Shown here: piece by piece, positions 1-3,728 of the stretch | Layout of the letters: the number at the start of each line of letters is the position of its first letter | Position numbering within the stretch: the stretch's first letter is position 1 | NCBI GenBank assembly: GCA_027064085.1 | Contig: JAMOQH010000111.1 | Coordinates: 1 to 9,252 of the forward strand | Source: a bacterium | GTDB lineage: Bacteria; UBP6; JAFGXH01 | Length of the DNA stretch: 9,252 nucleotides | Direction of reading: 5' to 3' | Notes under the pieces: generated by a model | What the model was told of the DNA's origin: nothing | Seen by the model: the letters and a program-made list of their open reading frames with translations, nothing else | Databases searched by the model: none | Program-made: the position numbers and the translations under genes

Positions 1-533
1 CTTGTACTACCATTGGAGCAGCCTGTATGGATACTGGAGTTTGTGATGGAAATAACTGTTTTAAAAAATGTACTGCGGATAATGATAGTTCTTGTGGTAG
101 AGATGATTTAGTGTGTGAAGATCATGATGATGGAGCAGGACCATTGTGTGTTAAAAAATGTTATTCTAATTCCGATTGCAATAGTAATTATTGTGTAGCA
201 GGACATTGTGAACTTCACTATATGAACTGTAATTTAAATGATGCCCTAGATGATGGCTGTGCTTATGGAGAATTTTGTACTACAAATAATGGGCAAGAAT
301 TATGTTACCCTAATGGAGATGGAGCTATTGGCTCTACCTGCGAGTGGACTGGCGACTGTATTGAAGGAGCTGCTTGTATAGGTAATAGTACAAATGGACA
401 TAAATGTACTGAAGTTTGTAAATGGTCTGATGACTGTAGCGATAGCAATGATCATTGCTATGCTTTTACTCTTGACAATGGCCAAAGACAATACAGATAT
501 GAAAGTGACGATATTTATGGATATTGTGATTAA
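1..533 (+). CDS. Cys-rich secreted/surface protein, 3' part only
   Basis: The reading frame is open to the left edge of the window (first full codon at base 3, Cys). The Met at base 27 is therefore almost certainly internal and the start and any signal peptide lie outside. About 176 residues are visible, with 24 cysteines (nearly 14%) and many Asp, Asn and Gly. Spacings such as C-x5-DC-x4-YC-x3-HC recur, and 'KKC' and 'GAAC' units return several times, so the protein is built of small disulfide-stabilised modules. This resembles Dickkopf-N/EGF-like Cys-rich modules in secreted proteins of Myxococcota-type bacteria. That placement is from pattern only, and no enzymatic motif is visible. It must act outside the cytoplasm, where disulfides form. 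Its TAA stop (531-533) overlaps the stop of the convergent HAD-like gene by 4 bp. Function unknown; adhesion or surface-structural roles are possible. Confidence 0.85.
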   Translation, partial: CTTIGAACMDTGVCDGNNCFKKCTADNDSSCGRDDLVCEDHDDGAGPLCVKKCYSNSDCNSNYCVAGHCELHYMNCNLNDALDDGCAYGEFCTTNNGQELCYPNGDGAIGSTCEWTGDCIEGAACIGNSTNGHKCTEVCKWSDDCSDSNDHCYAFTLDNGQRQYRYESDDIYGYCD

Positions 534-1249: not shown

Positions 1250-1273
1250 TTTAACTCCTAAAAATACTTTTGA

Positions 1274-1302
1274 ATTATAATATATTAATATAATTAAAGC
1301 AA
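1274..1302 (-). promoter_or_regulatory. Candidate sigma70-type promoter for the HAD-like gene
   Basis: On the minus strand TTGCTT (1302-1297) and a perfect TATAAT (1279-1274) are separated by 17 bp. They lie about 25 bp upstream of the ATG at 1249, which has AGGAG just before it. The spacing and the -10 are good; the -35 matches only TTG. In DNA this AT-rich, chance -10 boxes are common. Confidence 0.4.
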
Positions 1303-1376
1303 AAATTTTTTAATAATGTTTTTACATTGATAAAATTGACACAAAAAGATTATGATTAATTAATGGATTTAATTTT

Positions 1377-1664
1377 TTAGAACCCACTTAAAGAATGATG
1401 TTTTTTACCACTTGCATCATAACAAGATCCCGTACCACATGAAGAACTAAAAGTACTAGCTGTACTACAAGATTTTTTCATTACTGATTCACAAACCTTT
1501 TTCCCTTTTTTTCTATCAGAAAAACTATCTCCTTTTACACATACATACATAGTATTGTTACCATCTTTCTAGCCACTTCCACTCATGCACTTACTAAATG
1601 CAGGTGTTGAAAATACAAACATACTTACTGACAATACCAAAAAAATTGCACTTAAACGCTTCAT
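1377..1664 (-). pseudogene. Small six-Cys secreted protein with in-frame TAG
   Basis: Reading from ATG at 1664 gives 96 codons in one frame ending in TAA (1379-1377), interrupted only by a TAG at codon 32 (1571-1569). The start is well supported: AGAGG lies 7 nt upstream. Residues 1-24 form a clear signal peptide (MKRL, hydrophobic core, then TPAFS before Lys25). After the TAG the frame continues with a coherent mature domain: Cys at 26, 42, 58, 66, 76 and 81, Lys-rich stretches, and no other stop to codon 96. An even number of cysteines after a signal peptide suggests three disulfides. A single CAG-to-TAG or TGG-to-TAG change would explain the stop. All intact genes in the window end in TAA and none contains an in-frame TAG, so there is no local evidence of a changed code. 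Recent pseudogene, sequencing error or amber readthrough all remain possible. Family not recognised. Confidence 0.7.
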
Positions 1665-1879
1665 AAAATACCTCTATAAAAATTAATGATATAGTATTTT
1701 ACATTAAAACAAGCTTCTAAAGAAGATTTTTTACTTTGTTTAGAACTAAAAGATTTAGAGGATATTTCTTTATACTCAGATTTTGAAGAATGAGATGGAG
1801 TTTGAGGTAAAGAACTTGAACTAAACAAAAGGTATATTACCGCGAAGAACACCATAATAAGAATGACTAAAGATATCAT
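1661..1879 (-). pseudogene. Transmembrane plus Ser/Lys-rich fragment, possible kinase C-terminal remnant
   Basis: An open frame of 72 codons starts at ATG 1879 with one strong transmembrane segment (residues about 2-20), followed by a Ser/Lys-rich tail (about 21-54). It ends in TGA (1663-1661), overlapping the ATG of the next small gene as ATGA. I see no ribosome binding site before its ATG, and the last dozen residues read through the next gene's ribosome binding region, so it does not look like a normal independent gene. Its ATG overlaps the stop of the kinase N-lobe fragment as TAATG. The simplest reading is that it is the juxtamembrane and C-terminal part of the former kinase gene, left in another frame after an internal deletion. 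Alternatively it is a translationally coupled small membrane protein. Confidence 0.35.
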
Positions 1880-2070
1880 TACAAATTTTTTAAAACTTTT
1901 GTTTCTCTCTCAAATAATTCAACTAATTTCCAATTTTTGATATTGTTTATTACTAATTCTTTAATAACGACATTCTTATTATTTATGATATCAAGTGCTA
2001 AATAAGTATTAGACTCATTAGATATATTAAATTCTTTAATAACTTGATATTTATTATTTATCAAATTCAT
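1879..2070 (-). pseudogene. Truncated Ser/Thr protein kinase N-lobe
   Basis: 63 codons from ATG 2070, with AGAGG about 6 nt upstream and a plausible promoter. The sequence follows the start of a Hanks-type kinase domain. A YQVIKEF strand (8-14) leads into TYLALD (22-27), then VVIKEL (34-39) with the ATP-anchoring Lys37. The alpha-C region LFERETKVLKNL (52-63) holds the conserved Glu56. The frame then stops in TAA exactly where the family usually continues with an N-H-P type motif. The C-lobe with the HRD and DFG motifs is absent, and the roughly 220 bp downstream are too short to hold it. The Gly-rich loop has also lost its glycines (residues 16-21, ISNESN). It therefore cannot be a kinase, and I read it as a remnant of a larger gene truncated by deletion. 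A short binding protein is the less likely alternative. Confidence 0.65.
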
Positions 2071-2091
2071 AAGTAACCTCTATTGATTACA

Positions 2092-2183: not shown

Positions 2184-3728
2184 ATGTTTTATAGATATAT
2201 TGTTATGTTTTTTATTGCTTTTAGCTTGTTTTCTAAAGGTTTTATTGTTCAAAAACCTATAATATTTTTAACAAAACCACAAAAATCTAAATATGAATTA
2301 CCTGTTAAAGTACAAAATTTAATTAAAATCAATAAAAGTAGTAATAATTTTTTAGATAATCTTAATTATAAAGCAAGAAAGAAATTAGTCAGTTATGCTC
2401 TTAGATTTAATAACACAAAAGGTAAAAGAAGCAGAAACTTTAGAAATGATTGTTCTGGTTTTACAAGAAAAGTTTATTCTAAATTTAATATTGAGTTATT
2501 TAGATTGCCAAGACATGAGTTAAAGTCTATTAATGGAAAATGGTTAAATGGAGTTGAGTTGATATGGAAATATTGTAAGAAACATGGTAAAGTATTTATA
2601 AGAAAAACTCCAAAAACAGGTGATATTGTTTTTTTTGATAATACCCACGATAGAAATAAAAATGGAAGCTATGATGATTATTTTACTCATGTAGGAATTG
2701 TTGTTAAAGTAGATAAAGACAAAACCATTCATTATATTCACAAGGCAACAAGTGGAGTAAAAATTTCTAAATTAAATATGAAATATAAAAACAAACGAAA
2801 ATATGGTAAAAAGGAAATCAATTCATATTTAAGAAGAAGGGGAAAATATAGATTAAGTGGACAATTACTAAGAGGATTTGGTTCTATATTTTCAACATCT
2901 AGTACCCCCCGTAAGGATAAGTCGCTGGCTTACTCTCCAAGAAAGCAACAAAGTAAGGATAAGTCGCTGGCTTATCCTCCAAGAAAGCAACACAGTAAGG
3001 ATAAGTCGGAGACTTATCCTCCAAGAAAGCAACAAAGTAAGGATAAGTCGCTGGCTTATCCTCCAAGAAAACAACACAGTAAGGATAAGTCGCTGGCTTA
3101 TCCTCCAAGAAAGCAACAAAGTAAGGATAAGTCGCTGGCTTATCCTCCAAGGAAGCAACACAGTAAGGATAAGTCGGAGACTTATCCTCCAAGAAAGTCA
3201 AAATCCAATCCTATCATGAACTCAAGTAGGCCTTATCCTCCTGTTCAAATTATTCCTAAAAAATATAGAAAACAAATTGTAAAGCAGGCTATTTCATATA
3301 TAGGTAAAAGTATAAAAAAAGAAGATTTCGCCAGAAAAGTATATTCCGATTTAGGATTTAATATATTAGACAAAGAATTTAATAATGAAGAATATATTGA
3401 AAGAGCTATTTTTTGGACTTTTAAAAAAAATGGAAGGCTGTTTAGTGCTACGAAACCTAAAATCGGAGATTTAATATTTTTTGATAAATTAAATGGAAAA
3501 AACTTATTTTTAAATATTGCAATAATTGAAAAGATAAATAAAAATCAAATAACATTTATACATTCTTTAGATGGATTAGTTAAAAGGGGATTTCTAAATA
3601 GTAAATATTGGAAACTAAACAAAAAAGACAAAAAAATTATAAATAGTTACTTCATTAAAAATAAAAACAGCAGACGAAAATTAGCATCAGATTTTTTTAG
3701 AAGATTTGGCTCTATGTTTTCAAAATAA
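2184..3728 (+). CDS. Secreted NlpC/P60-like protein: active-type domain, repeat linker, inactive second domain
   Basis: 514 residues. Residues 1-19 are a signal peptide. Domain 1 (about 60-236) has NlpC/P60-type cysteine peptidase signs: NDCSGF (88-93) with candidate nucleophile Cys90, TGDIVFFD (145-152), and THVGIV (168-173) with His169. His186 in HYIHKA is the likely third residue. Such enzymes usually cut peptidoglycan stem peptides. Residues 244-341 are seven 14-residue repeats (KDKSLAYPPRKQQS type), strongly basic (net about +20) and Pro-containing, probably an extended wall- or surface-binding linker. Domain 2 (about 359-514) aligns with domain 1: FTRKVY with FARKVY, TGDIVFFD with IGDLIFFD, YIH with FIH, and a shared tail (GFGSIFS, RFGSMFS). 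Cys90 aligns with Lys379 and His169 with Asn444, so domain 2 should be catalytically dead. The start is backed by TGGAG 5 nt before ATG. The gene ends 5 bp from the convergent barrel gene. An amidase or transglutaminase-like reaction cannot be excluded. Confidence 0.85.
   Translation: MFYRYIVMFFIAFSLFSKGFIVQKPIIFLTKPQKSKYELPVKVQNLIKINKSSNNFLDNLNYKARKKLVSYALRFNNTKGKRSRNFRNDCSGFTRKVYSKFNIELFRLPRHELKSINGKWLNGVELIWKYCKKHGKVFIRKTPKTGDIVFFDNTHDRNKNGSYDDYFTHVGIVVKVDKDKTIHYIHKATSGVKISKLNMKYKNKRKYGKKEINSYLRRRGKYRLSGQLLRGFGSIFSTSSTPRKDKSLAYSPRKQQSKDKSLAYPPRKQHSKDKSETYPPRKQQSKDKSLAYPPRKQHSKDKSLAYPPRKQQSKDKSLAYPPRKQHSKDKSETYPPRKSKSNPIMNSSRPYPPVQIIPKKYRKQIVKQAISYIGKSIKKEDFARKVYSDLGFNILDKEFNNEEYIERAIFWTFKKNGRLFSATKPKIGDLIFFDKLNGKNLFLNIAIIEKINKNQITFIHSLDGLVKRGFLNSKYWKLNKKDKKIINSYFIKNKNSRRKLASDFFRRFGSMFSK
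2913..3206 (+). repeat. Seven tandem 42-bp in-frame repeats with inner inverted repeats
   Basis: Units start at 2913, 2955, 2997, 3039, 3081, 3123 and 3165, each exactly 42 bp (14 codons). Two variants differ in codons 5-6: Leu-Ala (units 1, 2, 4, 5, 6) and Glu-Thr (units 3, 7). The unit end alternates Gln-Gln and Gln-His, so the array probably grew in multiples of two units; units 2-3 resemble 6-7. Units 2-7 carry inverted repeats: AGGATAAG...CTTATCCT with a 7-nt loop in Leu-Ala units, and AGGATAAGTC...GACTTATCCT with a 3-nt loop in Glu-Thr units. Unit 1 has lost the right arm (CTTACTCT), and a leftover of the motif occurs near 3231. G+C is about 43% per unit, well above the flanks. Confidence 0.95.

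Follow-up and report, generated by a model that had tools for sequence, protein, structure and literature searches.

The window is the whole 9,252-nucleotide contig C111 of a 3.65-Mb draft genome (G000; 195 contigs, 94.7% complete). On its plus strand lies an ORF for 514 residues with an ATG at 2184 and a stop codon ending at 3728. Its product has a signal-like N terminus followed by two NlpC/P60 domains on either side of a repeat linker, the second of which lacks the catalytic Cys and His and is called dead below. The features of the gene are as follows.

2184-3728, + strand: whole ORF, with a signal-like N terminus, an active NlpC/P60 domain, a repeat linker and an inactive NlpC/P60 domain
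2184-2246, + strand: hydrophobic, signal-peptide-like N terminus (simple motif scan; helix at residues 2-16 in the model)
2361-2897, + strand: domain 1, residues about 60-238, NlpC/P60 fold with Cys-His-His intact (profile, alignment, model)
2451-2453, + strand: codon of the catalytic Cys90
2649-2678, + strand: DRNKNGSYDD loop of the DxNx(D/N)G type, a family signature missing from domain 2 (alignments)
2688-2690, + strand: codon of the catalytic His169
2739-2741, + strand: codon of the third-site His186
2901-3236, + strand: linker, residues 240-351, predicted to be disordered, pLDDT about 40 (full-length model)
2911-3197, + strand: 42-bp tandem array, 6.8 copies, 91% matches, one palindromic element per unit
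2956-2978, no strand: palindromic REP-like element, copy 1 of 6 intact (AGGATAAGTCGCTGGCTTATCCT)
2998-3020, no strand: element copy 2, perfect 10-bp arms, 3-nt loop
3040-3062, no strand: element copy 3
3082-3104, no strand: element copy 4
3124-3146, no strand: element copy 5
3166-3188, no strand: element copy 6, perfect 10-bp arms
3240-3725, + strand: domain 2, residues 353-514, NlpC/P60 fold without the Cys and His (alignment, model, structure comparison)
3318-3320, + strand: Lys379, replacing the catalytic Cys
3513-3515, + strand: Asn444, replacing the catalytic His
3561-3563, + strand: His460, the retained third-site His

The protein is probably exported, as judged from its N terminus. A simple motif scan found no lipobox Cys there, unlike in most soluble relatives from the same bacterial family; signal peptides and membrane helices were called by eye and by such scans rather than with a dedicated predictor. 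The neighbouring genes on the contig, which encode a HAD-type phosphatase, a predicted lipoprotein with an HEFAH motif, AroB and a TonB-dependent receptor, offer no operon clue and no hint of an effector-immunity pair. In the contigs compared, the NlpC-like ORF was the only window gene with a match, and a plasmid search with the whole 514-residue protein returned none. Elsewhere in the window, positions 3-533 (+) encode a Cys-rich repeat protein, incomplete because the contig ends there, which resembles Cys-rich lipoproteins found at other places in G000 (L033, L201). At positions 1250-2079 (-) a Ser/Thr-kinase-like sequence begins (MNLINNKYQVIKEF...), is soon interrupted by stops and looks truncated or decayed.

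The two NlpC/P60 modules

Domain 1 scored 44-55 bits against the Pfam NLPC_P60 profile (PF00877, MEROPS C40), above the curated cutoff of 23. It has the Cys nucleophile in a DCSG motif, the His and the third polar residue of NlpC/P60 sites, all invariant in the alignment (A3), and in the full-length model it superimposes on 7cfl (Z 14.2, rmsd 2.5, 120 residues aligned). In fold and in its Cys-His-His it is like the D,L-endopeptidases LytE (8i2d/8i2e), Acd24020 of C. difficile (7cfl), CwlO and MepS, which carry SH3, LysM or other binding modules and are not known to carry a dead NlpC copy. By sequence it belongs with single-domain NlpC/P60 proteins of Nitrospira, Myxococcota, Spirochaetota and others that bear the signature FFDNTxDxNxDGxxxD; these differ from the window protein in having one domain, with the active site intact. 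The DRNKNGSYDD loop could, at a guess from its motif, be a metal loop.

Domain 2 alone scored 15.9 bits against the same profile (E 0.013), below the cutoff. It lacks most of the DCSG motif region and also the D-x-N-x-(D/N)-G-type loop, which most relatives keep, other dead paralogues included. An earlier note made from the letters of the sequence had proposed that the active-site residues of domain 1 (Cys90, His169, His186) correspond to Lys379, Asn444 and His460 in domain 2, and all six are at the positions claimed. It had also taken domain 2 for an NlpC/P60 fold, to be checked by structure prediction, and this reading stands: an AlphaFold2 model built with a supplied alignment of 20 relatives reached a mean pLDDT of 89.5 and a pTM of 0.87, and NlpC/P60 structures ranked first when it was compared using VIA-align, with 7cfl at Z 12.7 (rmsd 2.0, 112 residues), LytE 8i2d at Z 12.6 and the non-catalytic RipD 4jxb at Z 10.8. 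Domain 2 is predicted to have the circularly permuted, papain-like fold, and it lacks both the catalytic Cys and the catalytic His. The full-length model shows two good domains joined by a linker with a pLDDT of about 40, and its pTM is 0.44; therefore, no fixed arrangement of the modules is predicted.

RipD of M. tuberculosis (Rv1566c; PDB 4jxb, 4lj1) is a dead NlpC/P60 domain, with Ala83-Ser132-Glu144 at its site, which binds peptidoglycan and carries a peptide-repeat tail (PMC12067865). Like RipD, domain 2 keeps the fold, has lost the catalytic residues and adjoins a peptide-repeat segment. However, RipD has a single dead domain, whereas the window protein joins a dead and an active domain in one chain, through a linker whose repeat comes from a genomic palindrome.

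The linker is a tandem array of a genome-wide palindromic repeat

The linker had first been read as a functional basic hinge. It was not, however, shaped for the protein: at the DNA level it consists of six or seven tandem copies of a palindrome, AGGATAAGTC-NNN-GACTTATCCT, one inside each 42-bp unit, with hairpin z-scores of -2.8 to -6.3. Searching G000 with the window's version of this element yielded 58 places, versus 2 for a reversed control, and a looser pattern with three arm pairs left free yielded 67 versus 0. Eight other genomes, of which two belong to the same family (G001 and G002), gave no match to the looser pattern. Sites of this genome-specific element (GGANNAGNCNNNGNCTNNTCC) include L202 1920-2291, L032 2347-2535, L193 893 and L219 2004.

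We inspected 65 of the 67 sites. The three free arm pairs were complementary in 58, 59 and 41 of them, versus 35, 31 and 24 expected if the arms were independent, a covariation reached by 0 of 2000 shuffles, which indicates that the hairpin is what is kept. The covariation is visible in the peptide, where Lys changes to Glu while Tyr changes to His or Arg on the opposite arm. The element uses the codons AAG, TCG and GCG, which seldom occur in the genes of the window; a constraint on the DNA rather than on the peptide would lead one to expect this. Most sites (58 of 65) fall within open frames 150 residues or more in length, and 56 of these 58 share a single frame, which reads (S)(K/R)D(K/E)xxx(Y/H/R)P. 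When separate ORFs were counted, 34 of 36 used this frame (p about 1e-8, even on the assumption of two open frames). Host proteins with recognised domains include TilS, DnaX, an ABC-F-like ATPase, CheA, a Ser/Thr kinase and FtsK. In these the element is found outside the Pfam domains or between two of them, and in TilS it is an in-frame insertion missing from the G001 and G002 orthologues.

Of 48 flanks examined, 40 have GTAN directly ahead of the stem, with GTAA in 26 and GTAG itself, the sequence expected of GTAG-type REPs, in 10. Two properties place the element among REP sequences: it is a palindrome in the range of 20-40 bp dispersed over the genome in 67 copies (control 0), and the genome encodes a RAYT-like transposase with copies of the element in its gene (G000:C192). 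This ORF, L202:1543-2496 (+), scored 56 bits against NF047646, below the cutoff of 80. Seven in-frame copies of the element split it, lying after the HxH motif and ahead of the C-terminal Tyr segment, and the Y1_Tnp profile missed the gene because of this array. Other genes of G000 do match Y1_Tnp, with no match in G001 or G002, and the strict element pattern was not found next to the three Y1_Tnp genes of G000 that Pfam identified. The two co-occur in one genome, and the C192 RAYT may move the element.

Intragenic REPs and Rickettsia palindromic elements (RPE) are already known (PMC3733652), and the present element resembles GTAG-type REPs and RPEs in being a short dispersed palindrome with GTAN beside the stem, in lying in frame in some ORFs and in sharing its genome with a RAYT (PMC3733652). 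Published REP families are mostly intergenic, whereas the copies described here lie mainly within ORFs and in one frame, some of them in tandem arrays, and published clusters encode up to 82 residues as against about 96 for the window array (PMC3733652). PARCEL palindromic coding repeats are likewise tandem, intragenic and of dyad symmetry, but they encode a 25-residue amphipathic domain (PMC2996958), whereas the window repeat peptide is hydrophilic and predicted to be disordered. The element thus looks like a GTAG-type REP family living mostly inside genes, with an unusual preference for coding sequence, and at the DNA level the linker is a tandem amplification of it. In this linker a selfish palindromic repeat has come to code for a protein tether, and genes like ftsK, dnaX, cheA and tilS illustrate that such elements can occupy linkers in a single frame.

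The same palindrome also forms an intergenic array at L201:1798-2224 (G000:C189). There the palindrome has GTAG at its foot, and the array, which separates two genes for envelope proteins, is part of a longer AATCCGCCC-type repeat. A different palindrome (ACAAGGGGTTGCAACCCCTTGT), possibly a second family, lies in frame at the 3' end of an IS200-like transposase gene (L203:1883-1905).

Dead NlpC/P60 domains in the bacterial family

The family was sampled through three genomes, G000, G001 (another genus) and G002. A contig of G001 (C304; the G001 contig is JAFGXH010000096.1 in the genome collection, from a Zodletone Spring metagenome bin) encodes a 604-residue lipoprotein with the same order of parts, namely, an active NlpC/P60 domain, a long repeat linker and a dead C-terminal NlpC/P60 domain. 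The latter reads TSAG and IDIG, with Ser for the Cys, Asp for the His and the third His kept. The loss of the Cys and His in domain 2 is hence not a private decay, as the one homologue with this layout shares it. The G001 linker, (AEAKRKAELD)n, is a different repeat with no palindromes in it; the two linkers thus arose separately at the same place.

The active-dead layout was seen in two of the three genomes. Two further kinds of protein with dead NlpC domains are encoded in all three. One is a tandem dead-dead protein that carries a lipoprotein signal; the other starts with a class III nucleotide cyclase (PF00211, 77-84 bits), continues with a hydrophobic stretch and ends in one or two dead NlpC domains. 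Each genome also encodes an active single-domain or an active-dead protein. The cyclase fusions at L026:761-2056 (-), L027:2038-3339 (+) and L031:2467-4530 (-), in which the hydrophobic stretch is a predicted single membrane helix, are possible wall-fragment sensors. A single literature search yielded nothing relevant on a link between NlpC and cyclases.

Simple Nei-Gojobori counts between G001 and G002 gave dN/dS values of 0.07, 0.15 and 0.20 for dead domains and 0.14 for the active single-domain pair. These values concern the dead paralogues of G001 and G002 rather than the window's own domain 2, and they indicate purifying selection on dead paralogues where dN/dS could be measured (0.07-0.20). 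The wider survey, made by scanning the collection with an eight-row alignment, covered 80 named loci and the matches in 386 further genomes. Every inspected relative outside the family keeps the Cys and His; one very weak match (L143) has the Cys and is too divergent at the His to read. Dead NlpC copies are therefore, within this sample, a speciality of the family, in which they have been kept and have spread into active-dead proteins, dead-dead lipoproteins and cyclase fusions.

As to where domain 2 came from, its 33% identity to domain 1 over 147 columns (BLASTP E 6e-17) and the match of a profile of nine active domains to the two dead C-terminal domains (E 1.2e-21) place duplication well beyond chance. 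The earlier proposal that domain 2 arose by duplication of domain 1 was right in this broad sense. As to its timing, the window's domain 2 groups in the best tree with its C-terminal counterpart in the G001 active-dead protein (86/93), but the AU test did not reject a duplication private to the window (p 0.33). One clade (96/97) unites ten dead domains that come from the dead-dead and the cyclase proteins. The window's domain 2 has no close orthologue, its nearest homologue being 28% identical, and sits on a long branch; because of such long branches the tree does not fix its origin. Domain 2 may come from an old shared duplication, belong with the other dead clade or be a private copy; a tree of such short, fast domains is weak.

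Possible roles of the two modules

On balance, we lean towards an exported two-module wall protein in which the N-terminal module cuts and the C-terminal module binds or senses peptidoglycan, the two being joined by a REP-built tether. Judging from its family and fold, the N-terminal module, with its complete Cys-His-His, would most likely cleave a bond of the peptidoglycan stem peptide. The C-terminal module, which keeps the predicted fold and has lost the nucleophile and general base, would most likely bind the stem peptide or peptidoglycan in the manner of RipD, holding the cutter on its substrate or sensing it, while a linker of predicted disorder built from the REP element would tether the two. 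The retention and spread of dead NlpC domains across the family favour binding or sensing over decay. That one module cuts and the other binds or regulates, as the earlier note suggested, is made more plausible by the purifying selection on dead paralogues and by the RipD precedent (PMC12067865). Against binding, domain 2 has lost part of the start of the active-site helix, so that preservation of the groove may be doubtful.

A less probable alternative, still to be taken seriously, is that the dead module does not bind peptidoglycan itself and is a regulator, which would act on domain 1 as an inhibitor or activator or would bring in a further hydrolase. Degenerate LytM proteins such as EnvC, which activate amidases, are a known functional parallel, and dead and active modules share one chain with long flexible tethers in two genera. 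However, the full-length model shows no fixed contact between the modules (pTM 0.44), and dead domains also occur without an active partner in their chain.

Domain 2 could also simply be decaying after duplication, the REP-like array having landed where nothing was constrained. The long branch, the Pfam score under the cutoff, the lost DxNx(D/N)G-type loop and the adjoining selfish DNA would fit; we nonetheless consider this improbable, given the full-length open frame with a confident fold, the protein from another genus that shares the layout and whose domain 2 is dead as well, the purifying selection on dead paralogues and the presence of the element in linkers of constrained genes (ftsK, dnaX, cheA). 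It is very unlikely that domain 2 works with an altered site, for example a Ser or Lys together with the remaining His: both C-terminal domains keep the third His and G001 has Ser at the Cys position, but the nucleophile and the general-base His are both gone and their replacements differ (Lys/Asn; Ser/Asp). Least likely of all is a wall-degrading effector delivered into other cells, an idea of the earlier note that we dropped: although the fold is also that of type VI amidases, Tse1 among them (Z 8.6-8.8), no secretion-system or immunity gene was recognised among the identified genes of the 9.25-kb contig. Moreover, most soluble members of the family have lipoprotein signals, and the soluble members are conserved in the manner of housekeeping envelope proteins.

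Returning to the cutter with a peptidoglycan-binding or -sensing partner, a wall peptidase with a dead copy of itself across genera, together with cyclase-fused dead copies, suggests that peptidoglycan is bound or sensed here in a way not recognised before. More tentatively, and with doubts that outweigh our confidence, we suggest that the family may have turned a peptidase fold into non-catalytic receptors for wall fragments, which would be tied to a cutter in one case, doubled in lipoproteins in another and coupled through one predicted membrane helix to class III nucleotide cyclases in a third, so that muropeptides outside would control cyclic nucleotides inside; in one species, a REP-type palindrome would supply and resize the tether.
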